Source of the DNA: Sulfuriferula sp. AH1
GTDB taxonomy: Bacteria > Pseudomonadota > Gammaproteobacteria > Burkholderiales > Sulfuriferulaceae
Assembly (NCBI RefSeq): GCF_002162035.1
Contig: NZ_CP021138.1
Coordinates: 682,001 to 746,000, forward strand
Direction: 5' to 3'
DNA length: 64,000 bases
Shown: positions 42,342 through 60,345 of the stretch, in pieces
How positions within the stretch are numbered: the first letter of the stretch is position 1
Layout of the letters: each line of letters begins with the position of its first letter
Notes under the pieces: model-generated
What the model saw: the letters and a program-made list of their open reading frames with translations, nothing else
What the model was told of the DNA's origin: nothing
Database searches by the model: none
Program-made: the position numbers and the translations under genes

Positions 42342-42393
42342 GCGGAAGCCCTTCCGCCTTAATCAATTATCATGCTGCCGCGACAATGGCACC
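42342..42393 (+). promoter_or_regulatory. Late promoter A (lysis operon): palindrome plus -10, 31-nt spacing
   Basis: Palindrome GCGGAAG-CC-CTTCCGC followed by CTTAA ending at 42362, then exactly 31 bases to the endolysin ATG. GACAAT sits at -12 to -7 from the ATG, and no ribosome-binding site is visible. It is the same arrangement as at the head and tail blocks. Confidence 0.7.
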
Positions 42394-42831
42394 ATGATTA
42401 CATCACGCAAACTAGACGACTTACAGCTGCCCGTCAAAATCAAGGCGCTTAATCTCATTCACGAGTGCAAGCTGGCCGGTATTGACTTGCTCATTACCTG
42501 CACCTACCGCGATTTTGAAGCACAGAATGCGCTTTACGCGCAGGGCCGCACAGTACCTGGTCGCATCGTGACCAATGCTCGCGGCGGGCAATCCTTTCAT
42601 AATTTCCATATGGCATTCGATGTGGTTCCGCTACGGGCTGGTAAGCCGGTATGGGGGACGACTGGCGCAGATGGCTTGCTCTGGCAAAAGGTCGGCGCGC
42701 TCGGCGAGGCGCAAGGTCTGGAATGGGCCGGACGCTGGAAGCGGTTCCGCGAATTGCCTCATTTTCAGCTGACTGGCGGGCTGACACTGGCTGAGGTTAA
42801 TGCTGGCAAGAAGCTGGAAGGCGCGGCATGA
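42394..42831 (+). CDS. Endolysin, M15/VanY-like L-alanyl-D-glutamate peptidase
   Basis: 145 residues. The peptidase M15 signature is present as GGQSFHNFHMAFDVVP (His and Asp zinc ligands) and LPHFQLTGG (final His). Such phage peptidases cleave peptidoglycan cross-bridges or stems for lysis. The ATG is fixed by its distance from the late-promoter palindrome. First gene of the lysis operon. Confidence 0.92.
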   Translation: MITSRKLDDLQLPVKIKALNLIHECKLAGIDLLITCTYRDFEAQNALYAQGRTVPGRIVTNARGGQSFHNFHMAFDVVPLRAGKPVWGTTGADGLLWQKVGALGEAQGLEWAGRWKRFRELPHFQLTGGLTLAEVNAGKKLEGAA

Positions 42832-43082
42832 AGTTCTCAGATCTGTTCCGTGATGCCGGTACCGGGATGCTTTCTCACACCAAGCTGTGGGCAAATATTG
42901 GCTATGCGACGCTCACCGTTGCCTTCATCAAGGACTCATGGGCTGGCGGCCTAACCGACATGAAGATATTCGCTTATGGCGCAGTGGTCACAGGCAGCGC
43001 CGCCGCATCAAAGCTGCTGTCGATGCGTTACGGCATCAAACCCGACACCAAGGATGCTGCCAATGAACCCGGAAACCCTTAA
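42828..43082 (+). CDS. Small membrane protein of lysis cassette, possible holin
   Basis: 84 residues with two hydrophobic segments (KLWANIGYATLTVAFIKDSW, FAYGAVVTGSAAASKLLSMR). It overlaps the endolysin by four bases. Holin function is suggested by size, topology and position only. Confidence 0.7.
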   Translation: MKFSDLFRDAGTGMLSHTKLWANIGYATLTVAFIKDSWAGGLTDMKIFAYGAVVTGSAAASKLLSMRYGIKPDTKDAANEPGNP

Positions 43083-43548
43083 ATTAATCGCCTCGGCGGT
43101 AGCTGCTGCACTGTTGTTCGGCGCTGGCTATCGCCTTGGCTCACGCCTTGCTCACAATGCCTGCGAAGCTGATAAGGCTGCTGCCCTGCAGCGCTTGATT
43201 ACCCAGCAGGCTGCCGTGGCCGCTCAGGATAATGAAGTGCTTACTACGCATGAAGTGGCCAACGAGCGCATCCGCGTCGTTTATCGAACCATCACTCAGA
43301 AAGCCAATGATTATGCGATCACTCATCATGATGATGCTTGTGGCCTTGATGCTGACGGGCTGCGCCTCTGGAATGCAGCCAATGCCGGTGATACCCCGCC
43401 AGCCGCCAGCCAACCTGACTACACCTTGCCCGCCGCTGCCACCACCAAAATCGGGGCAGATAGCGGATCTGCTGACCAACCACGTGGAAACGGCACAGCT
43501 GTATTACCAGTGCCGCGAGAATCATCAAGCGCTGGTGGACTGGAGTAA
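43063..43548 (+). CDS. Rz-like i-spanin
   Basis: 161 residues: an N-terminal membrane anchor (LIASAVAAALLFGAGYRLGS), then a periplasmic coiled coil (AALQRLITQQAAVAAQDNEV, ANERIRVVYRTITQKA). An Rz1-type lipoprotein gene is embedded in another frame, the classical Rz/Rz1 architecture for outer-membrane disruption. Confidence 0.8.
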   Translation: MNPETLKLIASAVAAALLFGAGYRLGSRLAHNACEADKAAALQRLITQQAAVAAQDNEVLTTHEVANERIRVVYRTITQKANDYAITHHDDACGLDADGLRLWNAANAGDTPPAASQPDYTLPAAATTKIGADSGSADQPRGNGTAVLPVPRESSSAGGLE

Positions 43549-43564
43549 GAACGATGGCAAATAA
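43307..43564 (+). CDS. Rz1-like o-spanin lipoprotein, embedded in Rz
   Basis: About 85 residues: signal and lipobox (MMMLVALMLTGCAS) followed by a proline-rich mature part (PPANLTTPCPPLPPPKSG). It overlaps the Rz-like gene almost completely in a different frame. An ATG two codons later is an alternative start. Confidence 0.85.
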   Translation: MIMRSLIMMMLVALMLTGCASGMQPMPVIPRQPPANLTTPCPPLPPPKSGQIADLLTNHVETAQLYYQCRENHQALVDWSKNDGK

Positions 43565-43585
43565 TTTACATGCAGGAGAGCGCTG

Positions 43586-43816
43586 ATGGATGCGTTTGAC
43601 CGCGCTCAGGCGCTTGAACTGGAAGAGTATGAGCGGCGCCAGCGCGCCGCAATTTTGCCGAATACCCTAACCGAATCGGCGATAGAGTGTGTCGAGTGCG
43701 AAACGCCCATCCCTGAAGCGCGTCGCCTGGCTGTGCCGGGCGTTCAGTTATGTATTACATGCCAGACGCGGCTTGAGCTGGTTCGAAAAATAAACGGAGA
43801 GAGACATGGCGGCTGA
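43586..43816 (+). CDS. TraR/DksA-type C4 zinc-finger protein
   Basis: 76 residues with the DksA/TraR zinc finger ECVECETPIPEARRLAVPG...LCITCQ (four Cys). TraR-like proteins bind RNA polymerase through the secondary channel. Small versions are common in Mu-like and P2-like phages. GGAGAG precedes the ATG. Confidence 0.88.
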   Translation: MDAFDRAQALELEEYERRQRAAILPNTLTESAIECVECETPIPEARRLAVPGVQLCITCQTRLELVRKINGERHGG

Positions 43817-44030
43817 CGAACACACATTATTGCTGGGTGAGATCAAGGGCAAGCTGGATCTGGTGATTGCACGCCAAGTTGAGCAAGGCGAAACACTTGA
43901 TGTGCTGGATGGCCGCATGCGTGCTGTGGAGGTGAAATCTGCCATGCATGGCGGTCTGGCAGGCGGCTTGGTTGCAATTGGAATGACTCTTTTGGTGGAA
44001 AAGGCCAAGCGCGTTGTCGGGATGGCATGA
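43806..44030 (+). CDS. Small phage membrane protein, function unknown
   Basis: 74 residues: an N-terminal helix with coiled-coil character (LLGEIKGKLDLVIARQVEQG, ETLDVLDGRMRAVE), then a hydrophobic segment (HGGLAGGLVAIGMTLLVEKA). Its start overlaps the TraR-like end. It could contribute to lysis or be a morphogenesis accessory. Confidence 0.65.
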   Translation: MAADEHTLLLGEIKGKLDLVIARQVEQGETLDVLDGRMRAVEVKSAMHGGLAGGLVAIGMTLLVEKAKRVVGMA

Positions 44031-44033
44031 CCA

Positions 44034-44534
44034 GTGGCACATAAACCAGAAAAAAAGACCGCAGCACGCGCGGCATTCGTTTACGAGGCGTTAACCCTGG
44101 AGGTGATAGCCCAGCGTGTTTGCGCCTCACTTGGCACTGTTTCGCGCTGGAAGCGCGATGCATTGGCTGAAGGCGACGATTGGGATCGGGCGCGCGCTGC
44201 TGCGCGATTGTCCGGCCAAGGCGCCGAGGCCGTCACTCAGGCGGTGATGGAAGACTTCGTGCTGCTGTTCCAGAGTACGATGACTGAAGTCAAGGCAGCC
44301 ACCGATATCAAGCCGATGGCAAAGGCCGAGATCATCAGCCGGTTGTCGGATGCTTATCAAAAGACCATGTCTGCCGTGGCCAAGGGCAATCCCAAGTTGA
44401 ATAAGCTGGCTGTGGCGATGGAGGTGATGCAGTCGCTGGCTGAGTTTGTGCGCAAGCACTATCCGAAGCATGCCAATGCGTTTGCGGAGATATTGGAGCC
44501 ATTTGGCGAGGATGTGGCTAAAAACTATGGGTAA
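44034..44534 (+). CDS. Mu gp27-like (DUF1804) protein, terminase small-subunit role
   Basis: 166 residues. HTH at the N-terminus (ALTLEVIAQRVCASLGTVSR), followed by a helical C-terminus. The DUF1804 family precedes gp28 in Mu-like phages and is thought to act as the small terminase. GTG start. It is coupled to the next gene. Confidence 0.88.
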   Translation: MAHKPEKKTAARAAFVYEALTLEVIAQRVCASLGTVSRWKRDALAEGDDWDRARAAARLSGQGAEAVTQAVMEDFVLLFQSTMTEVKAATDIKPMAKAEIISRLSDAYQKTMSAVAKGNPKLNKLAVAMEVMQSLAEFVRKHYPKHANAFAEILEPFGEDVAKNYG

Positions 44535-46152
44535 CACTACCCGCCGTGCCTTCCTCGATGGCATCGCCAGCCTAGCCACAGAGTACCGCCGCCAGATTGA
44601 GGCCGAGGTCGATGGCTTCACGCCTGATATGGCCGCACGCCAGGCGCGTCGTGATAAGGCGCATGCCAGCTTTGAATTCTTTGCCCGTACCTATTTCCCG
44701 CATTATGTGAAGTATGCGAATGCGGTGCTGCATGATTTCCTTTACCCGCGCTTACAAGAGATTGTGGATAACGGCGTGGGTGACCATGATGCCATTGCCG
44801 CCCCACGCGGTAACGCTAAATCCACCATCGTCACGCAGATATTCGTGATCTGGTGCGTGATTACCGGCCGCAAGCATTTCCCTGTGATTATCATGGATGC
44901 GCTGGATCAGGCGCTGCCGATGCTGGAGGCCATTAAGGCCGAGCTGGCATTCAACCCGCGCTTGCTGATGGATTACCCGGAGGCAACGGGGCAAGGCCGG
45001 GTGTGGCAGGTTGGCACTATCGTCACCGCTAATGATGCCAAGATTCAGGCGTTCGGCTCTGGCAAGCGTATGCGCGGCTTGCGTCATGGCCCGCATCGTC
45101 CGGATCTTGCAATCGGTGATGATCTGGAAAACGACGAGAACGTGCGCAGCCCCGAACAGCGTGACAAGCTGGACAGCTGGATCAAGAAAACCGTGCTGTC
45201 ACTGGGTGCGGCTGACGACTCGATGGACGTCATCATCATTGGCACTATTCTGCATTACGACTCGGTGCTGGCGCGCCTTATCAAGAACCCGCTGTGGAAG
45301 TCGCGCAAATTCAAAGCCATCATAGAATGGCCGCACCGCATGGATCTGTGGGACAAGTGGGAAGAGATCCTGCTCAATGACGGTGATGAAGTCGCCAAGC
45401 AGTTCTATGCAGAGCGTAAAGCCGAGATGGATTCAGGCGCGATAGTGTCATGGCCAGCCGCCCAGCCGCTTTACACACTGATGGTGAAGCGTGCCCGTGA
45501 TGGCCGCCAGGCGTTTGACTCCGAACAACAGAATGACCCAGTGAGCGGCGATGATGCGCCGTTTGCCAACTGCATTACTTTCTGGGTAAATCGCCTTAAT
45601 GAATGGATATTCTATGGCGCGTGCGACCCCTCACTTGGTAAGGCAGGAGGGTCGCGTGACCCATCTGCATTACTGGTAGGCGGATTCAACCGCAGCACGG
45701 GTATTCTGGACGTGGTTGAAGCGGCGATCAAGAAACGCCTGCCTGACCGCATCATCGAAGATGTGATTATGCTGCAGGCTGAATACCACTGCTTGGTATG
45801 GGTCGTGGAGACGGTGCAGTTCCAGGAGTTCCTGCGCACCGAGCTGGTAAAGCGATCCGCTGCGCGTGGCATCCCGGTACCCGCCCGTGCAGTGACACCA
45901 CATACCGACAAGATCCTGCGCATTGAGACCTTGCAGCCGCACATGGCCAACGGCCTGATTCGCCTCAACCCAAACCAGCACACGCTGATCGATCAGCTGC
46001 GGCACTTCCCTAAAGCCGATCACGATGACGGCCCGGATGCGCTTTATATGCTGTGGGCTGCTGCGCTATCCGGTGGTGGCGCAATCGAATACCAAACACT
46101 AGGACGTCGCCGAGAATCGGCGCGCGGCCTGAATGACTTTATGGGAATGTGA
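44527..46152 (+). CDS. Mu gp28-like terminase large subunit
   Basis: 541 residues. Walker A-like APRGNAKST is near residue 97, a Walker B-like acidic segment LAIGDDLENDE is near 195-205, and a nuclease-like C-terminal domain contains FYGACDPSLGK and the terminal KADHDDGPDAL. It packages phage DNA with flanking host DNA in Mu. The overlap with gp27-like fixes the start. Confidence 0.92.
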   Translation: MGNTTRRAFLDGIASLATEYRRQIEAEVDGFTPDMAARQARRDKAHASFEFFARTYFPHYVKYANAVLHDFLYPRLQEIVDNGVGDHDAIAAPRGNAKSTIVTQIFVIWCVITGRKHFPVIIMDALDQALPMLEAIKAELAFNPRLLMDYPEATGQGRVWQVGTIVTANDAKIQAFGSGKRMRGLRHGPHRPDLAIGDDLENDENVRSPEQRDKLDSWIKKTVLSLGAADDSMDVIIIGTILHYDSVLARLIKNPLWKSRKFKAIIEWPHRMDLWDKWEEILLNDGDEVAKQFYAERKAEMDSGAIVSWPAAQPLYTLMVKRARDGRQAFDSEQQNDPVSGDDAPFANCITFWVNRLNEWIFYGACDPSLGKAGGSRDPSALLVGGFNRSTGILDVVEAAIKKRLPDRIIEDVIMLQAEYHCLVWVVETVQFQEFLRTELVKRSAARGIPVPARAVTPHTDKILRIETLQPHMANGLIRLNPNQHTLIDQLRHFPKADHDDGPDALYMLWAAALSGGGAIEYQTLGRRRESARGLNDFMGM

Positions 46153-46153
46153 A

Positions 46154-47665
46154 ATGGCTGAAGACACTAAATTACCCCTGGATGCGAATAATGAAATCGC
46201 CACGGTTGCCAAGGATATTACCTATCTGGCGTTTCAGGGCATTTTGCGTAGCCGCGATGCGACACTGGAGACGCGTGGCGGTAATCGCAGCTATGCGATC
46301 TACGATGACATCGAACGTGACTGCCATGCTTACGGTGTGCTGCAGAAGCGCAAGCTGGCTGTGGTGGCGCGGCCCTGGCAGGTTGACCCGGCATCGAATG
46401 ATACGCTTGACATCAAGGCGGCCGACATGGTTCGGGCACAGTTGTCAGCGATCGGCGTGCCGGCAGCCGATAACCCAGGTGACCAGGTGGTGATGGCCAG
46501 CAACTTTGATTTGGTGTGTTTCAACCTGCTGGATTCCATACTCAAGGGCTTTGCTGTTGGCGAGATCATGTGGGATATCGACGGCAAGGAGATCGTCGCG
46601 CGCGAGATTCGCCCCAAGGATCAGCGGCGGTTCAACTTCGATACCGACTATAAGCTGCGCCTGAAAACATGGAGCCAGCTGATACCAGGTGAGACAGTGC
46701 CGCCGCGCAAGTTCATCGTGCACACCTTCGGCGCGAAGGATGGCTCACCTTATGGCATCGGTGTCGGCTCCAGGCTGTTCTGGCCGACATTCTTCAAGCG
46801 CCAGGACATTACGTTCTGGCTGACCTATCTGGACAAGTTCGGTAGCCCTACAGCCGTGGGCAAGTATCCAGGTGGCACACCCGCTGAGCAGCAGAAGGAT
46901 CTGCTGAATGCATTGGCGGCTATCTCTCAAGACGCTGGCGTGACGGTACCCGATAACATGGTGATCGAGCTGCTGGAGGCTAAGCGCAGCGGCACGGTGA
47001 CTTACGAACAATTCGCTCGTTACATGGATGAGGAAATGACCTTTGCCGTGCTGGGCGAAGCGCCGACCTCTAAAGGCGGCGGTGGTGCTCAGCAGACCGC
47101 TGCGCTGGCGCGTGAGGAGGTGCGGCTGGAGCTGGTGCAGGCGGATGCCGATCTGCTATCGGCCACGCTTAACGCGACCTTGTCGCCCTGGTTAACGGCA
47201 TACAACGTACCTGGTGCGCGGCCGCCGAAGATATGGCGCCAAGTGCAGGAAGCCGAGGATCTGAAGGCGCGATCGGAGCGGGACAGGAATCTGTTTGTCA
47301 TCGGATTTCGCCCGACATTAGCTGAGGTAACCAAGACTTACGGCGGCGAGTGGGAGGCGGTACCGCCTGCCGTCGTGCGCAAGACTGATGCGCTGCCGGC
47401 AGCATTTGCCGAGGCTGGCGATAACGGGCCATTCACCGATGACTTGCTGGCCAACAGGTTAGCGGTTGAAAGCGCCAAGCCCTGGACTGACACGCTGGTG
47501 AAGATTAAATCCATCGTCGACAGCGCTGCCTCACTTGAAGATTTACGTGATGCGTTAATCGGTGCATTCGGTAATCTGCCGCAGGATGAGCTGGTCAAGG
47601 TGATGCAGGCGGGTTTCGCCGTTGCAGATCTGGTGGGGATGGCTGATGTCGCTGACGGCCAGTAG
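46154..47665 (+). CDS. Mu gp29-like portal protein (DUF935)
   Basis: 503 residues of the DUF935 family: YAIYDDIERDCHAYGVLQKR, RLKTWSQLIPGETVPPRKFI and GSPYGIGVGSRLFWPTFFKR are typical. It forms the dodecameric head vertex. It follows gp28-like with one base spacing and overlaps the MuF-like gene. Confidence 0.92.
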   Translation: MAEDTKLPLDANNEIATVAKDITYLAFQGILRSRDATLETRGGNRSYAIYDDIERDCHAYGVLQKRKLAVVARPWQVDPASNDTLDIKAADMVRAQLSAIGVPAADNPGDQVVMASNFDLVCFNLLDSILKGFAVGEIMWDIDGKEIVAREIRPKDQRRFNFDTDYKLRLKTWSQLIPGETVPPRKFIVHTFGAKDGSPYGIGVGSRLFWPTFFKRQDITFWLTYLDKFGSPTAVGKYPGGTPAEQQKDLLNALAAISQDAGVTVPDNMVIELLEAKRSGTVTYEQFARYMDEEMTFAVLGEAPTSKGGGGAQQTAALAREEVRLELVQADADLLSATLNATLSPWLTAYNVPGARPPKIWRQVQEAEDLKARSERDRNLFVIGFRPTLAEVTKTYGGEWEAVPPAVVRKTDALPAAFAEAGDNGPFTDDLLANRLAVESAKPWTDTLVKIKSIVDSAASLEDLRDALIGAFGNLPQDELVKVMQAGFAVADLVGMADVADGQ

Positions 47666-48836
47666 TCAATTCAACAAGCCGTTTGCTGAGCAGCTGGCGT
47701 TCTTCCGCAAGAAGATCAACCTGCCCAGCGAGCGCTGGGACGATGTCTGGCAGCAAGCGCATGACCGCGCATTCATGGTGGCAGGCGCGCAAAAGGCCGA
47801 CTTGCTGGATGACTTGCGCAAAGCCGTCGACAGCGCGATCGCAGAAGGCAAAAGCATAGGCTGGTTCCGCAAGAACTTCGACGCCATCGTGGCGAAGCAC
47901 GGCTGGACAGGCTGGATGGGTGAAGGCTCGAAAGGCGGCCGCGACTGGCGCACGCGCATCATCTACCAGACCAACATGAGTATGAGCTACTCGGCAGGCC
48001 GGTGGGCGCAGTTAAGCGACCCTGATCTGATCAAGATGCGGCCATACAAGCGCTACGTGCACGCGGATGGCGTGCGGCACCCGCGCCCACTGCATCAGAG
48101 CTGGAACGGCATCACGTTGCCGCATGACGACCCTTTCTGGGACTCGCATTTCGCACCGAACGGCTGGGGCTGCCATTGCCGTATCACGGCTGCATCCGAG
48201 CAGGACTATCAGGCTGCCAAAGGCACAGACAAAGCCAGCCGCCCGACTGGCTGGGACACGATCAACCCGAAAACAGGTGCGCCGCTGGGGATCGATGCAG
48301 GGTTTGGTTACGCGCCTGGTAAAAGCGGCGACGTCCCCCTGCGCGAGATGGTGTCAAACAAGCTGGTGACGTACCCGCCAGCGATCAGCAAGGCGCTGTC
48401 GCATGATGTGAACCGTTATATTAATGCCCATGACCAAGCGGCCGATTACGCTGTGAAAGTGCTGGCTGATCGTTCCAAAACAGAGCCGCTCTGGCTGGGG
48501 TTCGTAGAGAATGCAGAGGCAGTGAGCGCTGCGGCCGGCCAAGATGTTAAGGGTTATATGGTGCTGCTGCCGGATGAAGCGCCGCGCCATGCCGAGAGCG
48601 TGCACCAGTACGATGGCGGTAATCAACGCCCGCCTATCCCGCAGGATTATGCGCAAGTCTGGAAGGTTCTGGCCGAAGCAGATAGCCTGCGTGCAGGTGA
48701 TCGATCAGCAACGGGATTAACAACCGTCGTCGCTGTCAAGAAAATCGGGGAAGAGGTATTTCGGTGTGTATTCGATGTGCGGCCAGGTAAGAAGAATCGC
48801 GCACTGGCGCTGTTGTCGCTGGTGATCAAGCGGTAA
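47646..48836 (+). CDS. MuF-like head morphogenesis protein (Mu gp30)
   Basis: 396 residues with the MuF core RIIYQTNMSMSYSAGRWAQL, and PNGWGCHCRI with the characteristic CHCR. After the MuF domain, the C-terminal ~120 residues (DRSATGLTTVVAVKKIGEEV, FRCVFDVRPGKKNRALALLS) resemble the small nuclease/toxin-like domains often fused to MuF proteins. That is a tentative call. A start eight codons upstream is an alternative. Confidence 0.88.
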   Translation: MSLTASSQFNKPFAEQLAFFRKKINLPSERWDDVWQQAHDRAFMVAGAQKADLLDDLRKAVDSAIAEGKSIGWFRKNFDAIVAKHGWTGWMGEGSKGGRDWRTRIIYQTNMSMSYSAGRWAQLSDPDLIKMRPYKRYVHADGVRHPRPLHQSWNGITLPHDDPFWDSHFAPNGWGCHCRITAASEQDYQAAKGTDKASRPTGWDTINPKTGAPLGIDAGFGYAPGKSGDVPLREMVSNKLVTYPPAISKALSHDVNRYINAHDQAADYAVKVLADRSKTEPLWLGFVENAEAVSAAAGQDVKGYMVLLPDEAPRHAESVHQYDGGNQRPPIPQDYAQVWKVLAEADSLRAGDRSATGLTTVVAVKKIGEEVFRCVFDVRPGKKNRALALLSLVIKR

Positions 48837-48910
48837 GGCAGATGGTGGCCGATGTCTGATTCCCCGACCATTACGCCCTAAGCGAGTCCATCTATCCGTT
48901 AAATATAGTT

Positions 48911-48961
48911 CAGTTTGTGAAATTGTGCAAACTGGTTTTCTGACTGTTATGTAAATTACAT
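48911..48961. promoter_or_regulatory. Inverted repeats and possible promoter ahead of the cassette-like genes
   Basis: CAGTTTG / CAAACTG inverted repeat (48911-48934) and the palindrome ATGTAAATTACAT (48949-48961), in an AT-rich stretch just upstream of the 91-residue membrane gene and its AAGGAG site. Possible own promoter and operator of the inserted genes. Confidence 0.4.
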
Positions 48962-48985
48962 ATTGGATACCAAGGAGATAAAGCC

Positions 48986-49445: not shown

Positions 49446-49540
49446 GGCATTTACAGGAGAACGACATAGACGGACGAATACTCACCTGCGTTTATTGTGG
49501 GCACGAATACCCGCAGGATACCCCGGCATCGGGAAGCGAA

Positions 49541-50299: not shown

Positions 50300-50498
50300 A
50301 ACGCGATTTAAGCGATTTAAGCCGTTTCATATATACCGTTGTAGCAAAAAATCAGGCGGCAAGATTTTAACGGGGGTTTAACGCCCTACATTCACGCGCA
50401 TGTATCGCGCCGAGGATGCGTTTTTGGGGAGGAAATGGATTTTGCATTCCCAGCGCATTCTGGTACGCTAAAAAAGACTGATAAAAAACCCGCATTAA

Positions 50499-50549
50499 CG
50501 GAACCCGTTCCGCCTTAACCGGCGGCGAAGCCGCCGTCACAATGGCGGC
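50499..50549 (+). promoter_or_regulatory. Late promoter B (head operon)
   Basis: Palindrome CGGAAC-CC-GTTCCG followed by CCTTAA ending at 50518, then 31 bases to the protease ATG. CACAAT is at -12 to -7, and no ribosome-binding site is seen. A GGCGGC-GAA-GCCGCC stem lies between the -35 and -10 positions. In the gap upstream of the palindrome, the only other repeat noticed is a GTTTAACG-type motif. Confidence 0.7.
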
Positions 50550-51653
50550 ATGAATACATCCAAACCCATCCAGATCTTCCGTCCCGGCACTCATACTGCG
50601 ATGAGCGGTGCTGTGCTTGGGTTTTCTGAAACCGATCTTGCTGCTTCGGCAGCGGCTTATGATCCGGCTAAGCACGAAGCGCCGCTGGTCGTCGGCCACC
50701 CGACGCATGATGGCCCTGCCTACGGCTGGGTGAAGTCACTTGGGTTCGCTGAAGGCGGCCTTGAGGCGCAGCCTGACCAGGTTGACCCCGACTTTGCCGA
50801 GATGGTTACTGCTGGCCGCTTCAAGAAGATTTCTGCTAGCTTCTATTCCCCTGATTCCCCAAACAACCCTGTGCCAGGCGTGTACTACTTGCGCCACGTC
50901 GGCTTCCTCGGTGCGCAGCCGCCTGCGGTTAAGGGGCTGCGTGCGCCTGAGTTTGCCGACAATGAATCCGGCATTGTCGAATTCGCCGATTGGTCTGACA
51001 TGCAGAATGCTGGCCTGTGGCGCAATCTGCGTGAGTGGATTATCAGCAAATTCAGTCTGGATGAAGCAGACAAGGTGATCCCCGGCTATACCGTCGCCTC
51101 GCTGGAGGATGACGCCCGCAAGGAATCGCCTGACGAACCTACCCCCGCACCCTATTTTACCGAGCAAGCCAACCCCCAAGAGGAGATACACGTGACCCCA
51201 GAACAAGCTGCTGCGCTGGAAGCTGAAAACGCGCGTTTGAAAGCCCAGAACGCGGAATTTGCGGCCGCCGATAAGCTGGCCAGAACCGCCGCCATTCACA
51301 CTGAAAACACCGCCTTTGCCGAAGCGCTGGTATCGGCGGGCAAGCTGCTGCCTGTGAATAAGGATGTAGCGATCGCCACGCTGAATTACTTCGCTGGACA
51401 GGATACGCCAGTCGAGTTCGGCGAGGGCGATGCTAAAAAGCCGATGGTCGATGCGTTCAAGGAATTTTTACAAGCGCAGCCAAAAGTAGTGGCGTTTGGT
51501 GAGCACGCTGCCGGCGAGATCAAGCAGGTCGATATGGAAGACGCTACGGCGATCAGTGCCAAGGCAGTCGAGTTCATGGAAGCAGAAGCCAAGGCTGGGC
51601 GCACTGTCAATATCGCTCAGGCCGTGGCACATGTCACGCAAGTTAACCAATAA
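50550..51653 (+). CDS. Mu gpI-like prohead protease with internal scaffold region
   Basis: 367 residues. The N-terminal protease domain has PLVVGHPTHDGPAYGWVKSL and FKKISASFYSPDSPNNPVPG (conserved His and Ser). The C-terminal scaffold half has a coiled coil (AAALEAENARLKAQNAEFAA). A strong AGGAGAT site and an in-frame GTG at 51192 mark an internal start, which would yield a separate 153-residue scaffold like Mu gpZ. Confidence 0.88.
   Translation: MNTSKPIQIFRPGTHTAMSGAVLGFSETDLAASAAAYDPAKHEAPLVVGHPTHDGPAYGWVKSLGFAEGGLEAQPDQVDPDFAEMVTAGRFKKISASFYSPDSPNNPVPGVYYLRHVGFLGAQPPAVKGLRAPEFADNESGIVEFADWSDMQNAGLWRNLREWIISKFSLDEADKVIPGYTVASLEDDARKESPDEPTPAPYFTEQANPQEEIHVTPEQAAALEAENARLKAQNAEFAAADKLARTAAIHTENTAFAEALVSAGKLLPVNKDVAIATLNYFAGQDTPVEFGEGDAKKPMVDAFKEFLQAQPKVVAFGEHAAGEIKQVDMEDATAISAKAVEFMEAEAKAGRTVNIAQAVAHVTQVNQ
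51192..51653 (+). CDS. Internal in-frame scaffold protein (Mu Z-like)
   Basis: GTG start six bases after AGGAGA, in frame within the protease gene. It would produce a 153-residue Ala/Glu-rich coiled-coil scaffold (MTPEQAAALEAENARLKAQN). In Mu, Z is expressed the same way from within I. The start is inferred from the ribosome-binding site. Confidence 0.6.
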   Translation: MTPEQAAALEAENARLKAQNAEFAAADKLARTAAIHTENTAFAEALVSAGKLLPVNKDVAIATLNYFAGQDTPVEFGEGDAKKPMVDAFKEFLQAQPKVVAFGEHAAGEIKQVDMEDATAISAKAVEFMEAEAKAGRTVNIAQAVAHVTQVNQ

Positions 51654-53157: not shown

Positions 53158-53170
53158 TCATTAACCTCAG

Positions 53171-53196: not shown

Positions 53197-53212
53197 CGTC
53201 AAGGAGAGAATC

Positions 53213-53416: not shown

Positions 53417-53841
53417 TGGATTACGCTACACAAGCCGACATGGTGTCTGTATTCGGTGAGCGTGAGGTGGTCATGCTCACCGACCGCAGCCTGCTTGGCA
53501 CGATCGATGCGACTGTGCTGGCTGATGCCTTGAGCCTGGCATCGGATGAGATCGATGCTTATCTGGATGGGCGCTATGCGCTGCCGCTGCCGAACGTGCC
53601 GCGCCTGCTGACCCGGATCTGCTGTGACATTACCCGCTACCGCCTCTCTGGCGGTGACGCGCAGGAAACCGAGCCGTCGCGCAACCGTTACAAAGACTCG
53701 ATCAAGATGCTGGAGGCGGTGAAGCGCGGCGATCTGACGCTGGGGCTGGACCCTGCCCAGCAAGAGGTACCGACGCGCGGCGCCGTGCAGATTAATAACG
53801 GCACTCGTACATTCAGCCGCGACACGCTGGCGGATTACTGA
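53416..53841 (+). CDS. Mu gp36-like protein (DUF1320), head-tail connector
   Basis: 141 residues of the DUF1320 family (YATQADMVSVFGEREVVMLT, ASDEIDAYLDGRYALPLPNV). Believed to be a head-completion/adaptor protein. One-base overlap with gp37-like. Confidence 0.9.
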   Translation: MDYATQADMVSVFGEREVVMLTDRSLLGTIDATVLADALSLASDEIDAYLDGRYALPLPNVPRLLTRICCDITRYRLSGGDAQETEPSRNRYKDSIKMLEAVKRGDLTLGLDPAQQEVPTRGAVQINNGTRTFSRDTLADY

Positions 53842-54433
53842 TGATAACCGAGATCGAAGACGCCATCCTCGCTCGTATCGGGACTGCCAACGATGGCAGG
53901 TTGGGCTACAAGTTTGCCTCGCTGGCGACTTACGGCGGGGAGTTTGACGAAGATATTAACCAGGTGATACGCCGCTTGCCGGGTTTGTGGTGGTGTATGC
54001 GGGTGGTGGCAAGCCAGTGCCTTATGGCACCCAGAAAGCCCGCTGGAAGATGCCTGCGACCTTTGCTGTGCTGGTGGGTGCGCGCAGCGTGCGCGGCGAG
54101 GGTTTTAGCCGTCGTGGGCTGGCTGATGCTGCTGGTGCGGTGCTGGAGGTGGGTGCGTACCGGATGCTGGAAGATGCGCGGCGGATGCTGCTGAATCAGG
54201 ATTTTGGTCTGGCGATCGAGCGGTTTACGCCAGGCGCGGTGAAGACGCTCTACAACGTGCGCATGAACGGGCTGGCGATGTCGGTTTTCTCCCAGGAGTG
54301 GCATACGGCATTCATGATCGATCCGGAGCCGACCGACCCAGCCGCACCAGATTGGTTGCGCTTGGGCATAAATTATTACCTGCAGCCGGACGATGGCATC
54401 CCTGATGCGTCCGATGTGATTACCTTGGTATAG
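53841..54433 (+). pseudogene. Mu gp37-like protein (DUF1834), apparently frameshifted
   Basis: Two frames together make one gp37-like tail-terminator protein. The first frame gives MITEIEDAILARIGTANDGR to INQVIRRLPGLW and then degenerates. A second frame from about 53985 gives VVYAGGGKPVPYGTQKARWK through to SDVITLV. The switch lies in a GTGGTGGTG stretch and needs a net -1 (or +2). No typical slippery heptamer is visible, so a one-base deletion, a sequencing error or an unrecognised recoding signal are the options. Confidence 0.75.
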
Positions 54434-54442
54434 ATAGGAGAA

Positions 54443-54637
54443 ATGACGATGTGGGTTAAAGCAAATGCAGGGCTGAAGGTGCCGATGGAGGGCAAGCCCA
54501 ATGATTATATTACGGAGGATGTGGCGATTGAAGTCCCTGATAGTGCGTATTACTTGCGTCGCCTTGCTGATGGTGACGTTGTTCTGGCGGATGCGCCCGT
54601 CGCACCCAAAGCAAGTACAAGCAAAGGATCTGAATAA
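54443..54637 (+). CDS. Mu gp38-like small protein (DUF2635)
   Basis: 64 residues: VKANAGLKVPMEGKPNDYIT and VPDSAYYLRRLADGDVVLA are diagnostic for DUF2635, always found just before the sheath gene in Mu-like phages. GGAGAA precedes two in-frame ATGs, and the first is used. Confidence 0.88.
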   Translation: MTMWVKANAGLKVPMEGKPNDYITEDVAIEVPDSAYYLRRLADGDVVLADAPVAPKASTSKGSE

Positions 54638-56058
54638 TGGCTAGCAAGAATATTGCCTTCAGCAGTATCCCGTCGAGCATCCGTAAGCCGGGAAAATATT
54701 TCGAATTCAATACCGCCCTGGCGGTACGTACCTTGCCGGGTAACCTGCAAAAGACGCTGATCATGGGCCAGCGCACTGCTGCCGGTACGGTGCTGGCCAA
54801 TGTGCTGACGGATGTTTTCTCGGATACCGATGCGGCGACGTACTTCGGCTATGGATCGATGCTGCATCTGATGGTACGGGCGGCATTGCGCGCCAATCCG
54901 TATCTGGCATTGTCGGTGATCGCGCTGGATGACGATGCGGCCAGCCTGGCTGCCGCCAGCACGGTGACGGTGACCGGCACTGCTTCAACCGCTGGCGTGG
55001 TAACGCTGGGAATCGGTGCGCAGCAAGTGCAGATTGCAGTTAATAGCGGCGACCTGCCGGCGACGATCGCATCGGCACTGGCTACGCAGATCGGCAAGCA
55101 GCCGGATCTGCCGGTCACGGCGACGGTGCTGGCGGGTGTGGTGACATTGACTGCCAAGAACAAGGGCGCGCTGGGTAACTCGATCAAGATCTCGGTGACC
55201 AGCACTGTCGGTACCACCACCGTGGTGGCCACAGCATTTGCTGGCGGTGCGACCGACCCGCAACTGACTACGGTGCTGCCGACTGTATTCTCCGCCGGGC
55301 ACAATATCCTGGTGTCGCCGTATAACGATGCGACAAATCTGACCTCGCTGCGCACGCACCTGGACAGCGTGGCCGGCCCGATGGAGCAGCGCGGCGCAAT
55401 TGGTGTCTGCGGATTTGTGTCCACTTTGTCGACTGCAACGACGGCGGCACTGGCTAATAATAGCGGCCGCATATCGGGAATTCTGGTGCCTAATGCGTCT
55501 GACCTAGTCTGTGAAGTGGCGGCGTCGTATGGCGCGGTGTGCGCCAGCGAGGAGGACCCAGCGCGGCCGCTGAATACGGTGCCATTGACCGGCCTCACTC
55601 CGCCGCCAATGGCGAACTGGCTGTCGCGCACCGAGCAGGAAAACGCGCTGTACAACGGTATCACCCCGGCTGAAGTTGGGCCTGGCGGTGTCGTGCAGAT
55701 CGTGCGCGCGATCACCATGTACACGGTAAATGCCAGCGGTATCCCGGACATCAGCCTGCTGGATCTGACCACTATCCGCACGCTGGATTACGTGCGCAAG
55801 GCCGCCCGTGAACGCATCGCGCTGCGTTTCCCACGCGAGAAGCTATCGGAGCGGACTGCGCCAAAAGTGCGGTCGGAGCTGCTCGATGTGCTGACCAAGT
55901 TGGAGGAGCTGGAAATCGTGGAGAACGTAGCGGCCAATGCAGCAGGCTTGCTGGTTGAGCGCGATCTGCAAGATCCGAATCGACTGGATGCGAAGATCCC
56001 AGCTGATGTGGTGAACGGGCTGCATGTGTTTGCTGGTCGGATTGACTTGTTGCTTTAG
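54637..56058 (+). CDS. Contractile tail sheath protein (Mu gpL-like)
   Basis: 473 residues. The sheath family C-terminus is seen as LDYVRKAARERIALRFPREK and NGLHVFAGRIDLLL. An Ig-like insert region rich in Thr/Val/Ala lies near residues 105-200. It starts one base inside the gp38-like stop. Confirms a contractile (myovirus) tail. Confidence 0.93.
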   Translation: MASKNIAFSSIPSSIRKPGKYFEFNTALAVRTLPGNLQKTLIMGQRTAAGTVLANVLTDVFSDTDAATYFGYGSMLHLMVRAALRANPYLALSVIALDDDAASLAAASTVTVTGTASTAGVVTLGIGAQQVQIAVNSGDLPATIASALATQIGKQPDLPVTATVLAGVVTLTAKNKGALGNSIKISVTSTVGTTTVVATAFAGGATDPQLTTVLPTVFSAGHNILVSPYNDATNLTSLRTHLDSVAGPMEQRGAIGVCGFVSTLSTATTAALANNSGRISGILVPNASDLVCEVAASYGAVCASEEDPARPLNTVPLTGLTPPPMANWLSRTEQENALYNGITPAEVGPGGVVQIVRAITMYTVNASGIPDISLLDLTTIRTLDYVRKAARERIALRFPREKLSERTAPKVRSELLDVLTKLEELEIVENVAANAAGLLVERDLQDPNRLDAKIPADVVNGLHVFAGRIDLLL

Positions 56059-56096
56059 GCGTTAAATTTTGATGGCGATAGCATTGGTTTAACGCC
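56058..56096. repeat. GGCGTTAAA inverted repeat between sheath and tube genes
   Basis: GGCGTTAAA (56058-56066) and TTTAACGCC (56088-56096), 9-bp arms around 21 bases. Possible RNA stem controlling the sheath/tube ratio. Confidence 0.4.
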
Positions 56097-56125
56097 AAGC
56101 TTACTATCCTAACTGGAGAAAGATT

Positions 56126-56500
56126 ATGGCATTAGAAGAATACGCCGGCTCGATTGTGATGGAGATCGATGGTAAAGAGGTCGAGATCGCGAGCCTGAAT
56201 GCGACTGAAAAAACCGGCCGAAAACTGGTCAAGACAATGAATAAAACAGGTCGAGCAAAAGGCTTTTCCAGAGGTATTAAGGAATACGACCTGAGTATTT
56301 CAGCTGTGATTCCGCTGACTGGCGATATTGACTGGGCTGCGATCGAAGGGGCAAAGATTACTCAATACCCGCTATCTACCGGTGGCCAGCGTGTTAGCTA
56401 CCTTGATTGTTTCGCAATTAGTGTTGGTGAAAAATACACGGTAGACAATGAAGCCATGCGCGATATTGCTATGGGCGCATTGCGCAAGGTGGAAGAATGA
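56126..56500 (+). CDS. Tail tube protein (Mu gpM-like)
   Basis: 124 residues (MALEEYAGSIVMEIDGKEVE, KGFSRGIKEYDLSISAVIPL) of the Mu tail-tube family. It follows the sheath gene and overlaps the tail chaperone gene by four bases. GGAGAAAG ribosome-binding site. Confidence 0.92.
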   Translation: MALEEYAGSIVMEIDGKEVEIASLNATEKTGRKLVKTMNKTGRAKGFSRGIKEYDLSISAVIPLTGDIDWAAIEGAKITQYPLSTGGQRVSYLDCFAISVGEKYTVDNEAMRDIAMGALRKVEE

Positions 56501-56808
56501 GCGCCATTATCGTAAAGGGTACGCTGCCGATCGGTGTTGAGGTTGATGGGCAGCGCTATCGGGAGTTCGAGATTCGTTCCGGCACGCTGCGCGATGCCAT
56601 CGCATTATCCGAGATTGACGGCTATCTCGATCTGCCAGAAAACAAGAAGCGTTACTCCGGGATTGCGCAACGGCTAAGTATCGATGGGGTTGATGCCGAG
56701 ATGATCACGCTGGATTTGCTCCTGGATATGGTGGATCGTGATTTCATCGTTATCGATAATGCGGCGGATGAAGTCGAAAAAAAGCTCGATGCGCTGAGCA
56801 GCAGCTAA
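56497..56808 (+). CDS. Tail assembly chaperone, short (0-frame) form, Mu gp41-like
   Basis: 103 residues (GVEVDGQRYREFEIRSGTLR, LDLLLDMVDRDFIVIDNAAD). It belongs to the tail assembly protein that in Mu and lambda is made in two forms by -1 frameshifting. A slippery A-AAA-AAG lies near its 3' end. Confidence 0.9.
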   Translation: MSAIIVKGTLPIGVEVDGQRYREFEIRSGTLRDAIALSEIDGYLDLPENKKRYSGIAQRLSIDGVDAEMITLDLLLDMVDRDFIVIDNAADEVEKKLDALSSS

Positions 56809-56993
56809 AGCCAATTCGCCAGGCGCAGGGGCTGCTCGCCCGCGCCGGGTTCGACCCGGACAAAGTGCTCGATATGAGCGAGGCCGAGGTTGAATCCCAC
56901 CTCAGTGTCGTGCTTCAGCTTTCTGGGGCAAAAGCACATGGTGATACCACTACCAAACGCGTCATCAGCCAGCGCAAAAAGAAACCATCATGA
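56497..56993 (+). CDS. Tail assembly chaperone, long (-1 frameshift) form
   Basis: Frameshifting at the A-AAA-AAG heptamer joins the first 96 residues to 69 residues of the -1 frame, giving about 165. This extension (for example PIRQAQGLLARAGFDPDKVL, DMSEAEVESHLSVVLQLSGA) has no start of its own in front of the overlap, and its stop overlaps the tape-measure ATG. Same logic as lambda G/GT and Mu gp41/41'. Confidence 0.85.
56778..56784 (+). promoter_or_regulatory. -1 programmed frameshift slippery site A-AAA-AAG
   Basis: Within GAA-AAA-AAG of the tail chaperone gene and in the correct 0-frame register for tandem slippage. Downstream of it the -1 frame stays open to a TGA at 56991-56993. Confidence 0.85.
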
Positions 56994-58852
56994 GCGGAAA
57001 ACTTGAACTAGAACTGATAATGCGCTTGCGTGATCTCGCCTCTGGCGCGTTCACCGGTTCACAGCGCAACATGCAGTCTGAGATCGGCCGAACTCAAAGC
57101 TCGGTAGATCTGCTCACCCGCAAAATGCAGGGCTACGAGCGCCAAACTTCAACGGCTATTCAAAAGAATGACAACCTGCTCGCCGGTGTGCGCCGCTTAG
57201 CCAATGAGCGCGGTCCTGTGGCGCTTATCAACGGCCTGCGGACGGTATCAGAGCAGGCGGCACGTGCGCAGCGGATGATTGAGGGAATGTCCAGGGCTGC
57301 TGCGGGTGTCGCTGCAGCAGGTTACGTTATATCGCGCCCGCTGAATCAGACGATGGATTATGGCATGCGGCTGGCGGGCATGGCCAATACTGCATTTACC
57401 GATCGTAACGCTGGCGGTCGTATTGCAGGCAAGGATGAACTGAATAGCGCTATTGTCAAAGCAGTGCGTTACGGCGGCGGTACCCGCGACAGCGCGGCCG
57501 AGACCCTCGATACGTTGATCGCCTCCGGTGCCATGTCGGCCAAGGATGCGATGGGGATGCTGCCGACGCTGGTGCGTTCTGGCACAGCTTCTGGTGCTGA
57601 CCCCAACCAGCTTGCCCAGATCGGCATCCGTGGCATGCAGACCTTTGGCATCAAGCCGGGTGAAATGGGTAATGCCATCGATATGGCGATTACTGCAGGC
57701 CAGGCAGGTGGATTCGAGCTGAAGGACATGGCCAAGTGGCTGCCGCAGCAAATGGCGGCGGCCAAGATATCCGGATTATCCGGTACCGCTGGTCTGGCCA
57801 AGCTGCTGGCAGCGAACCAGGCATCGGCGATTACTGCTGGCTCGAAAGATGAAGCTGGTAACAACCTGGTGAACCTGCTGACCAAGATCAACAGCAGTGA
57901 CACGGCAAAAGATGCTCAAAAGCAAGGTATTAATCTGTCTGGCACGCTGGCTGCAGCACGGGGCAAGGGGATGGACGGCATTGATGCTTTTGTCGCCATC
58001 ACGGATAGCATTGTTGGCAAGGACAAGAATTATCAGGCGCTGCAGGGCAAGCTGAAAACTGCTCAGGGCGGTGATCGCAAGACGATACTTGAAAGCCAGG
58101 CCGATATCCTGCAGGGGTCGGCAATCGGTAAAATTGTACAGGACCGGCAGGCATTAATGGCGCTGGTAGGTATCATGAGTAATCGCAGCTATATGGCGGA
58201 TGTGCAGAAGAAAACACTCGCCGGTGCAGGTGCTACCGAAAAGAATTTTGCTGTAATCTCGGCAGAGGCCGGTTTTAAAGCCCAGCAAGCGGGTAATGAA
58301 AAAGTATTTGCCACTCAGAATGCGTTTGAGAAGCTGGCGCCGATGGTGTCATCAACAGCTGACTGGATGACCAGTATGGCTCGTCAGTACCCAGTATTGA
58401 CTGCTGCAGTCATGGCGGCTACTACGGCACTGACGGCTTTGGCTGCAGCTGCTGCTGCGTCGGGTGTAGCCGGGTTGCTTACAGGCAGGGGTGGCGGCGC
58501 GCTGGCTCAGAAAGCAGGCGGCAGCCTGCTCACCCGGCTTGGCGTCACTGCTGCATTTGCCGGTGGATCATCGCTCACTACTATGGCTGGGCTGGGTGCT
58601 TCCGGGCTGGCTACGATTGCCGGTGGGGTTGGAGTTGCCGGTGCAGCTGGATATGGTGTCGGTAGCCTGGTCAACAAAGGTATTGAGGGCACCGCGTTTG
58701 CCGACTCGCTGGGCAGATCTATTGCAAGGGCATTGGCCTTTATGGGTAGCGCTGAGGCAAGGCAGTCGCTCAAGGTTGAGGTCGACGTCAAAAACGGCAA
58801 TATCGTGGCTGCAGTTAACCAGGCTAACGCACGTCAGGCGAGCCGTCATTAA
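56990..58852 (+). CDS. Tail tape-measure protein (Mu gp42-like)
   Basis: 620 residues: N-terminal coiled coil (LTRKMQGYERQTSTAIQKND), a tape-measure core domain (ASGADPNQLAQIGIRGMQTF, FELKDMAKWLPQQMAAAKIS), hydrophobic Ala/Gly-rich segments near 460-580, and a short tail. It sets tail length and is coupled to the chaperone's long form. Confidence 0.9.
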   Translation: MSGKLELELIMRLRDLASGAFTGSQRNMQSEIGRTQSSVDLLTRKMQGYERQTSTAIQKNDNLLAGVRRLANERGPVALINGLRTVSEQAARAQRMIEGMSRAAAGVAAAGYVISRPLNQTMDYGMRLAGMANTAFTDRNAGGRIAGKDELNSAIVKAVRYGGGTRDSAAETLDTLIASGAMSAKDAMGMLPTLVRSGTASGADPNQLAQIGIRGMQTFGIKPGEMGNAIDMAITAGQAGGFELKDMAKWLPQQMAAAKISGLSGTAGLAKLLAANQASAITAGSKDEAGNNLVNLLTKINSSDTAKDAQKQGINLSGTLAAARGKGMDGIDAFVAITDSIVGKDKNYQALQGKLKTAQGGDRKTILESQADILQGSAIGKIVQDRQALMALVGIMSNRSYMADVQKKTLAGAGATEKNFAVISAEAGFKAQQAGNEKVFATQNAFEKLAPMVSSTADWMTSMARQYPVLTAAVMAATTALTALAAAAAASGVAGLLTGRGGGALAQKAGGSLLTRLGVTAAFAGGSSLTTMAGLGASGLATIAGGVGVAGAAGYGVGSLVNKGIEGTAFADSLGRSIARALAFMGSAEARQSLKVEVDVKNGNIVAAVNQANARQASRH

Positions 58853-58873
58853 TGTTTAAATGGATGATTAGAT

Positions 58874-59056
58874 ATGATGCTGATGTTTGAGATTTCTCGT
58901 CCATTCCGAGCAAAACCGAAGATGGAGAAATATGGGATTTTATCACGGTGGATTTGGTTGTGGTTTTCAGTGGCATATTTGGATGCCGGATTCAATGATA
59001 TTACTAAACAAATCCGCTTAGAGGAACGTGCGCGGATTGTAAATAACCTCTTGTAA
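58874..59056 (+). CDS. Possible small protein between tail modules
   Basis: 60 codons with several ATG options (MFEISRPFRAKPKMEKYGIL, WIWLWFSVAYLDAGFNDITK). One hydrophobic segment and a charged C-terminus. No ribosome-binding site is clear and no homologue was recognised. Placed between the tape-measure gene and late promoter C. Confidence 0.4.
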   Translation: MMLMFEISRPFRAKPKMEKYGILSRWIWLWFSVAYLDAGFNDITKQIRLEERARIVNNLL

Positions 59057-59062
59057 CCATCA

Positions 59063-59115
59063 GGCGGAAGCTCTTCCGCCTTAACCAGCCTCACGCGCGC
59101 GCGTAATCTGTGCGC
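59063..59115 (+). promoter_or_regulatory. Late promoter C (tail tip/baseplate operon)
   Basis: Best-conserved copy: GGCGGAAG-CT-CTTCCGCC followed by TTAA ending at 59084, then 31 bases to the gpN-like ATG. TAATCT is at -12 to -7. No Shine-Dalgarno sequence. Confidence 0.72.
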
Positions 59116-60345
59116 ATGGCCTGGAAAGATACCCTACTTGAAGCCTCGTTCAGAGGCGTTGTTTTCGACTGCATCAGTACGGATGACAGTGCGGATCGCG
59201 CTACGGCCGAGCATTCCTACCCTTACGTCGATGGCGCGGACATCGAAGACCTTGGGCGTGGTCCTCGTCATTTCAGTGTTGCGGCAATATTCTTTGGCGA
59301 TGATTATGAGGTCAGGCTGCAGGCGTTCCTTGCAGCATTTGACCAGCCTGGTCCCGGTGAGTTTATCCATCCCGTATTCGGCTCGATCAAGACCGCGCAA
59401 GCGATACGCTCCAGCGTCCACCATGAGGCTGATAATGTCGACCAGGTGTCAGTCAGCCTTGAGTTTATCGAGTCCACCCCTAGTAATCCATTTTTTGACC
59501 GTAGCCTGCCATCGCAAAAAGCTGATGCCATTGGGCAGCATGGCGATGCGGCCACAGCATCTGCCATATCTGAAATTGGTAACGTGGTCGACAGGCTGCA
59601 TGCAGCTAACCCGCTGGCTGCGCTGGATACCTTGCGCCAGGCGATGACCGGTCCGCTGTTGGCGGGTATGTCGCAGGTGCAAGGTGTATTACTCAGCGGG
59701 ATGGATGTGCTGGCTTACCCTCGCGCATGGGGCAATGATGTTTCTGCATTGGTTGGTGGCGTGCTGGATGCGCAGGATTTCACTACCAATGTGTCGGCTG
59801 CATGGGCGTCGGTACAGAGCAATTTGACGCTGTTCGATGTATTCAGCGCGCCGCCCGCCAGTGTGCCGGCGCAGGTGAATGCAAGCGCTGTGCCGACTGA
59901 GCAGCAGGCTGTGGCTGCGGCAGCTGTCACTGTCAAAATCAATTCAGCTACCGGGCTGGCAAGCGCTGCCGGGATGTTGCTGTCTACCGAGTCGGCCACG
60001 CCGACGTTATCCCCGCTTGAGATCACTGCCATCGCCAATGCTGTGCGTACCAGCATTGAGAGCGCGATTGTCGATGTGCGCGCCATTTATCCGCTGGAGC
60101 AGAGCCGTGCGATTACCGAGCCATTAAAAGATCAGGCGCTGGCGATTCAGGATGCGGCGCGCGCGATTATCGAGATCCGGCCGCCTTTGATCGTGCGGGT
60201 GATGAATGCACCAGGTAATTTCCGTCTGATCGCGCATCGTCTGTATGGCGACCATACCCGTGCGCCTGAGCTGTTCCGTTTGAACAATATACGGCTGCCT
60301 AACTTCATCCAGCAGGGGGATAAGCTCAATGCCTACGCCAGCTGA
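59116..60345 (+). CDS. Mu gpN-like DNA circularisation / tail protein
   Basis: 409 residues. The N-terminus MAWKDTLLEASFRG is characteristic of the DNA_circ_N/Mu gpN family, followed by FSVAAIFFGDDYEVRLQAFL. The C-terminal ~45 residues are LysM-like (LIAHRLYGDHTRAPELFRLN, IQQGDKLNAY). A GTG two codons upstream is possible, but the ATG is fixed by the family N-terminus and by the promoter spacing. Confidence 0.9.
   Translation: MAWKDTLLEASFRGVVFDCISTDDSADRATAEHSYPYVDGADIEDLGRGPRHFSVAAIFFGDDYEVRLQAFLAAFDQPGPGEFIHPVFGSIKTAQAIRSSVHHEADNVDQVSVSLEFIESTPSNPFFDRSLPSQKADAIGQHGDAATASAISEIGNVVDRLHAANPLAALDTLRQAMTGPLLAGMSQVQGVLLSGMDVLAYPRAWGNDVSALVGGVLDAQDFTTNVSAAWASVQSNLTLFDVFSAPPASVPAQVNASAVPTEQQAVAAAAVTVKINSATGLASAAGMLLSTESATPTLSPLEITAIANAVRTSIESAIVDVRAIYPLEQSRAITEPLKDQALAIQDAARAIIEIRPPLIVRVMNAPGNFRLIAHRLYGDHTRAPELFRLNNIRLPNFIQQGDKLNAYAS

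Follow-up and report, generated by a model that had tools for sequence, protein, structure and literature searches.

A Mu-like prophage lies in the 64,000-nucleotide stretch of the Sulfuriferula sp. AH1 genome considered here (contig NZ_CP021138.1, positions 682,001 to 746,000; hereafter the window), and three of its late genes are each preceded by a copy of the same palindromic element. On the sequence evidence these elements are very probably the late promoters of the prophage, activated by a Mor-type protein and giving rise to leaderless late mRNAs; an RNA hairpin that would lock the genes against read-through transcription is a less certain addition. A late regulon driven by the Mor-type protein had been raised in the original prediction and it is still the best-supported reading. 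The element is positioned much like the Mor site of phage Mu, it recurs before the same genes in related phages and its sequence appears to track a residue of the Mor recognition helix.

The three palindromes, as read directly from the sequence, are TGCGGAAGCCCTTCCGCC (site 1, 42341-42358), AACGGAACCCGTTCCGCC (site 2, 50497-50514) and GGCGGAAGCTCTTCCGCC (site 3, 59063-59080). As had been predicted, each is followed directly by TTAA and exactly 31 nucleotides (nt) separate the TTAA from an ATG (at 42394, 50550 and 59116). The constant part is a CGGAA-N4-TTCCG core followed by CCTTAA, whereas the outer GG..CC arms, which had been counted as part of the palindrome, vary between sites. With the A of the ATG taken as +1 all three sites fall on a single grid: CGGAA-N4-TTCCG occupies -51 to -38 and is followed by CC, a -35-like TTAA(C/T)C occupies -35 to -30 and, 17 base pairs (bp) on, a -10-like hexamer at -12 to -7 ends 6 nt before the ATG (GACAAT, CACAAT and TAATCT at sites 1, 2 and 3, respectively). 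The 31-nt constant is thus the sum of the remaining 2 nt of the -35 element, the 17-bp spacer, the hexamer and the last 6 nt, i.e. the -35-to-start distance of a predicted leaderless mRNA. Both this and a second inverted repeat at the -10 box had been overlooked. Placement before lysis and head genes held good, the genes concerned encoding an endolysin and the protease I, but the third site, thought to serve the tail-tip genes, precedes N, one gene ahead of P.

The three copies are unlikely to be due to chance. Exactly three copies of CGGAANNNNTTCCGCCTTAA were found in the 2,916,145-base genome and these are the three late sites; allowing 2 mismatches added one further match, the complementary strand of site 3, and a control search with the reversed pattern, likewise allowing at most 2 mismatches, found 2 + 2. 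A scan of the window with the full 18-mer at 3 mismatches returned sites 1 and 3 only (0.36 expected; 3 of 100 shuffles reached 2), site 2 being missed because its outer bases differ. TTAA-N28..34-ATG alone was not enriched in the window (44 found against 52.4 expected), and the enrichment there belongs only to the combination of palindrome and TTAA-N-ATG.

Since the palindromes sit between operons and can fold as RNA, they might serve to end the upstream operons, as intrinsic terminators or RNA hairpins, with the constant spacing a by-product of shared ancestry. A similar CGGAA..TTCCG stem with a run of T is found before two late genes of RR1-B, which is in keeping with such a role. In the window, however, the palindromes are followed by CCTTAA with no U-tract, none of the three was listed by a terminator scan, and what is conserved is the sequence and not just the pairing, with variation in the outer arms and the 4 central bases. 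Terminators would also leave the fixed distance to the -10 box and ATG, and a sequence that tracks a Mor residue, to be accounted for, and the explanation is highly improbable. Termination as the main role of the palindromes was rejected on the lack of a U-tract and their absence from the terminator scan, in which consensus matches were no commoner than in shuffles (16 found against 15.2 expected). In RR1-B (L196) two copies of ACCGGAACCGAGTTCCGGT followed by a T-run are present, upstream of 11615 and 19069; they are terminator-like with a half-site spacing of 5, and the RR1-B Mor also has arginine (Arg) in its helix.

The Mor-type protein at 40219-40611 had been named as the only activator candidate, and it is indeed the sole Mor/C-family match over the cut-off in the genome, the runner-up scoring 13.6 bits. 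It scored 54.8 bits against Pfam PF08765 (Mor; cut-off 24.9) and matched phrog_836, a late transcriptional activator, with an E value of 2.2e-38. Used alone, the sequence did not reach the PDB chains of Mu C and Mor, which were matched at E 0.0014-0.026 by a profile built from 14 relatives. A single-protein scan of viral contigs with the window protein found one relative. The gene stands at the end of the early region with three open reading frames (ORFs) between it and the endolysin gene, and a small HNH-like ORF (41993-42277; phrog_6050, E 3.4e-4) lies between it and the lysis promoter. A second Mor/C-family protein over the cut-off, as in the Mu-type cascade of Mor followed by C, was not found in the genome. 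With one match over the cut-off a separate C activator is therefore not needed, and it seems to be absent.

The sequence of the site was found to be associated with a residue of the Mor recognition helix. In the window helix (TERQIRNIL) the second Arg aligns with tyrosine (Tyr) in Mu Mor and Mu C. Forty loci were chosen by Mor homology, their operators not being looked at during selection; they were hand-picked as stronger matches with downstream sequence, from more than 100 matches in 83 of 300 genomes, and three are shorter than 19.9 kilobases (kb). CGGAA-N4-TTCCG occurred in 5 of the 8 loci with Arg and in none of the 32 with another residue (Fisher p = 8.5e-5), or in 4 of the 8 Arg loci when only sites with the late-promoter layout were counted and L249 was excluded (p = 7.7e-4). 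The L249 site, near 1364 on the Mor strand, is a CGGAA-N4-TTCCG followed by CATTAA, 29 nt before the Mor ORF, and may reflect autoregulation or chance. Exhaustive repeat listings in the Mor loci were noisy. In the sites read by hand, a G at the second base of the left half-site went with Arg and a T there with tryptophan (Trp) or Tyr. With clusters at 80% identity the count for this code was 16 against 1, and 12 of 12 clusters (p 2.5e-7; 1.9e-6 with G034), and with clusters at 60% identity it was 7 against 1 and 8 of 8 clusters (p 0.0014; 0.0034 with G034). The hand-read table includes records that were found through the CGGAA pattern and leaves aside both G034, which does not fit the code, and G048, which nearly duplicates G042, and the count on Mor-selected loci is the cleaner test of the operator code. 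At the level of sequence, the association with the helix residue ties the CGGAA-N4-TTCCG site to Mor.

Another DNA-binding protein, either a phage repressor or a host factor, could in principle bind the palindrome while Mor acts elsewhere, and the prophage does encode other regulators, e.g. a repressor-like ORF at 31399-31785. Such a protein would have to explain an operator that varies with the Mor recognition helix and whose position matches the Mor site of Mu as given in PMC4390567. It would also have to explain the spread of the element across many host genera and a genome scan in which no copy lay near the repressor or the early region. This alternative is improbable.

A number of observations weigh against a Mor-driven regulon of this kind. 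The clearest exception to the operator code is G034 (L176-L177), possibly a mosaic phage, in which one CGGAA promoter is found alongside a Mu-type Mor carrying Tyr. In L243 Arg is accompanied by a hybrid CTGAA/TTCCG site; L245 and L264, among the 40 Mor-selected loci, have Arg and no symmetric site. Of the 24 loci with an aromatic residue 3 had a symmetric CTGAA site, against none of the 16 others (p 0.26), and the Trp/Tyr half of the code therefore rests on hand-read, partly asymmetric sites. When geometry was tabulated, a spacer of 4 nt with 37 nt to the ATG was the top of 280 cells in the Mor-selected set, but its count was only 13 where the mean was 4.66 (uncorrected p = 0.001); the same peak in all Mor-bearing sequences was 56 against a median of 18, a comparison biased by pattern-found records. 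The half-sites are 4 bp apart in the prophage and 6 bp apart in Mu, and the operator sequence differs. The hairpin predicted at site 3 is weak, with a z-score of only -0.45.

A search of related phages for the palindrome with TTAA-N31-ATG, as originally proposed, showed that in many Mu-like phages the element recurs before the lysis genes, the protease gene (I) and N, but that the spacing is not always the 31 nt of the window, ranging in relatives from 30 to 33 (mostly 31 or 32). The exact CGGAANNNNTTCCGCCTTAA pattern gave 86 matches in 83 stretches of viral contigs. An ATG lay 30-33 nt past the TTAA in 66 of these stretches and at exactly 31 nt in 42 of the matches, whereas scrambling the palindrome, with the tail and the ATG distance (30-33 nt) unchanged, left 1 stretch. 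Genome contigs yielded 36 stretches with pattern and ATG, many from Gallionella, Sideroxydans, Nitrosomonas, Nitrosospira, Methylobacillus and similar genera and some from unrelated titles, which may be chance matches. Of 18 near-complete records, each at least 24 kb long, 17 contained two or three elements at no more than 2 mismatches, and some of these elements had no start codon within range. The ATG of the element opens the protease in 16 of the 18 and N in 8 (G042 and G048 are near-identical); among the remaining element-linked ORFs, lysis queries gave a direct match to two and a match in the next frame for a third, and several appear amidase-like by eye. A Mor-family match (E <= 0.001) was found in all 18, in 15 of them over the Pfam cut-off, and in 25/50 and 2/16 of two record sets when shorter fragments were included. 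G051 and G066, both longer than 24 kb, gave no Mor-family match, and their pattern matches are without the start-codon geometry. The 18 records were found via the CGGAA pattern and so are not an unbiased test of the operator code.

The late mRNAs are predicted to be leaderless. No Shine-Dalgarno sequence was seen before the three start codons of the window, and in a set of 60 dereplicated promoters a Shine-Dalgarno-like 4-mer preceded 3 starts, as against 157 of 335 control starts inside operons. The base at -11 is A in 53 of the 60 and that at -7 is T in 56, while the TTAA bases are kept in 56, 48, 53 and 46, respectively; this set has its ATG 36-39 nt after the operator by construction and some chance matches are likely to remain in it. 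Protease and N homologues of relatives begin at the grid-positioned ATG. In L263, a Mu-type relative, the distance is likewise 37 nt and the operator, TTAAA-CCGG-TTTAA, is entirely different. Leaders with ribosome sites are found in L259, L260, L262 and Chromohalobacter phage YPCBV-1, and SuMu is also leadered, so leaderlessness is a trait of part of the family only. The -10 boxes of leadered relatives lie 24-26 nt past the operator, a distance that is partly by construction as they were sought at 24-28 nt, and their transcription starts are predicted ones. No leaderless grid was seen at the gene starts inspected in KS10, TJ1 and RR1-B.

Under the proposed mechanism a dimer of the Mor-type protein would bind CGGAA-N4-TTCCG, centred at -44.5, adjoin the poor -35-like TTAA(C/T)C and help the host sigma-70 polymerase to open the -10-like box 17 bp downstream. 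Transcription would begin at, or 1-2 nt from, the A of the ATG, and one protein would cover the work that is split between Mor and C in Mu. The activator belongs to the known Mu Mor/C type, of which the operator, leaderless layout and single-activator scheme are a variant. According to PMC4390567 and PMC4287176, the binding site of Mu Mor is a 16-bp element, centred at -43.5, that contains two 5-bp inverted repeats, and Mor at Pm and C at the late promoters (Plys, PI, PP and Pmom) share with the prophage a dimeric activator of the Mor/C family, a dyad near -44 in place of a good -35 element and a sigma-70-like -10 box. Promoters stand before lysis, I and tail genes in both. The prophage differs in having one activator where Mu uses Mor and then C, in being predicted leaderless where Mu has annotated ribosome sites, and in a tail promoter that lies before N where that of Mu is inside it. 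Further comparisons are Alteromonadaceae phage B23 (KY939598) and YPCBV-1 (OP380511), which have a Mor-like protein and a GAA-N4-TTC operator before late genes, together with, in B23, the leaderless grid at two genes. Unlike the prophage both have CTGAA half-sites and Trp or Tyr in the Mor helix, YPCBV-1 has its leaders and the N gene of B23 is without such an element. Genes for Avd and reverse transcriptase, annotated as a diversity-generating retroelement, lie at the end of YPCBV-1 (L192; 34205-35938). The operator had been called unfamiliar from the literature, and no account of it or of leaderless late mRNAs in Mu-like phages was found among the papers listed by literature searches that were thin on subscription journals and in part limited to 8 or 10 of 16 to 209 papers.

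The second inverted repeat surrounds the -10 box and is most often centred at -9 in the 60 promoters. Pairing at this centre was 57%, compared to 16-36% at nine other centres and 48% after arms were swapped between promoters, and stems of at least 6 pairs were present in 22 of the 60 against 3.0 in shuffles. The mean RNA fold z-score was -1.78, against -0.16 to -0.72 in three control segments. In the window the effect is clearest at site 1, whose read-through RNA is predicted to pair the endolysin AUG, and at site 2 the arms GCCGCC..GGCGGC around the -10 box give a predicted hairpin of -15.9 kcal/mol with a moderate z-score (-1.73). The arm sequences differ among promoters and recognition by one sequence-specific protein is therefore unlikely. 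Relative to swaps within a class the arms covaried in the GGC class (p 0.002), and no covariation was found in the GCG and other classes (p 0.31 and 0.43). Protease promoters tend towards common GCC[ACAAT]GGC-like arms, and a CG-repeat tract directly 5' of the -10 box is common to N promoters (window 59087-59103, G006, G010, G018, G042 and G049), so that spacer classes seem to go with the gene and not with the phage. An Rfam scan of 30000-64000 found no family.

In leadered relatives the hairpin predicted for read-through RNA is located at the start codon or the ribosome site, and its 5' arm would be missing from RNA begun at the predicted start. The read-through fold was -11 kcal/mol or stronger in 14 of 15 items, SuMu I being the exception. 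Against shuffled upstream bases p was below 0.05 in 10 of the 14 items tested, 9 of the 14 coming from three related prophages. Mu lys was significant (p 0.023) and Mu I tended in the same direction without being so (p 0.17); L259_1973 (p 0.21) and YPCBV-1 I (p 0.083) were not significant either, and shuffling had no effect on SuMu I (p 0.50), for which the -10 was set differently in the two analyses; YPCBV-1 lys was folded but was outside the shuffle test. The Mu lys and Mu I starts were set 7 nt past the -10, and the oligonucleotide design in PMC4461284 implies starts close to this. The region of the Mu lys ribosome site was open in both RNA forms (0.62 and 0.70). Natural variants of Mu I and lys were too alike for a covariation test, 3 of 42 records being at 80-90% identity, and in the one divergent variant inspected (Escherichia coli SE11) the stem was kept but was weaker. 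The hairpin between -10 and start codon is terminator-like with a U-tract in L259 and L262 (second elements) and in SuMu (L197, near 10121), the 5' arm in these being upstream of the predicted transcription start; that of the L260 second element has no clear U-tract.

It could be that the second repeat acts as DNA and not as read-through RNA, e.g. as a hairpin formed under supercoiling, with the -10 bases exposed in its loop and melting made easier, and many promoters do have the -11 to -7 bases in the loop with the symmetry centred at -9. The loop is, however, shifted upstream in L237, L120 and L082, and in leadered relatives the hairpin is found at the ribosome site or the start codon, its 5' arm lying immediately 5' of the predicted transcription start, which makes a role as DNA rather unlikely. 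As the less certain part of the Mor-driven scheme, the repeat would fold read-through RNA into a hairpin against the start codon while RNA initiated at the promoter would be without it, so that the endolysin and head genes would be silent in read-through transcripts. A comparable arrangement is described in PMC3014915 and PMC2988022 for the late promoters of T4 gene e (lysozyme), soc and I-TevI, where read-through RNA folds over the start region and the late transcript is without the 5' part of the structure. T4 differs in relying on its own late sigma factor, and the leaderless promoters of the prophage in having both arms upstream of the predicted start, except that at site 1 the outer stem extends into the start codon. 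The chances are about even that a lock against early lysis and assembly like that of T4 gene e operates here, and perhaps also in Mu. A wider proposal is that the Mor/C-driven late promoters of Mu-like phages, Mu included, sit inside an RNA hairpin such that only late-promoter RNA is translatable and, in some phages, only it escapes a terminator. The leaderless promoters of this prophage lineage, with the hairpin upstream of the transcription start, would be the extreme form. This proposal is tentative, its probability being put a little below even.

Table 1. Positions in the window of the late promoters, the genes they precede and associated features
Feature	Positions	Strand	Evidence
Mor/C-family activator, 130 amino acids, recognition-helix segment LTERQIRNIL	40219..40611	+	PF08765, phrog_836
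Intrinsic-terminator-like stem-loop just 5' of late promoter 1	42313..42334	+	consensus scan, weak
Late operator 1, CGGAA-GCCC-TTCCG, -51 to -38 from A of ATG	42343..42356	+	sequence, genome scan
Core promoter 1: TTAATC 42359-42364, 17-bp spacer, GACAAT 42382-42387, 6 bp, ATG 42394	42359..42393	+	sequence
Site 1 predicted hairpin pairing the endolysin AUG in read-through RNA	42369..42398	+	-12.5 kcal/mol, z -2.84 against dinucleotide shuffles
Endolysin gene (VanY/peptidase M15), opens lysis block	42394..42831	+	phrog_2649 E 1e-29, PF13539
Late operator 2, CGGAA-CCCG-TTCCG	50499..50512	+	sequence, genome scan
Core promoter 2: TTAACC 50515-50520, 17 bp, CACAAT 50538-50543, 6 bp, ATG 50550	50515..50549	+	sequence
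Head maturation protease (Mu I homologue)	50550..51653	+	phrog_976 E 1.5e-130
Late operator 3, CGGAA-GCTC-TTCCG	59065..59078	+	sequence, genome scan
Core promoter 3: TTAACC 59081-59086, 17 bp, TAATCT 59104-59109, 6 bp, ATG 59116	59081..59115	+	sequence
Mu N homologue (DNA circularisation/hub, DNA_circ_N)	59116..60345	+	PF07157 E 1.4e-29
P-like hub gene, next after N	60329-61453		phrog_184 and phrog_177 cited for N/hub pair

If this account is correct, the link between Mor helix and operator would be readable, and sequence would allow late regulons to be annotated in numerous Mu-like prophages that are still uncharted. A further prediction is a set of late mRNAs without leaders that would be read by the host polymerase. 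The account would also suggest that in Mu-like phages the lysis and head genes are protected from read-through by the logic of T4 lysozyme.

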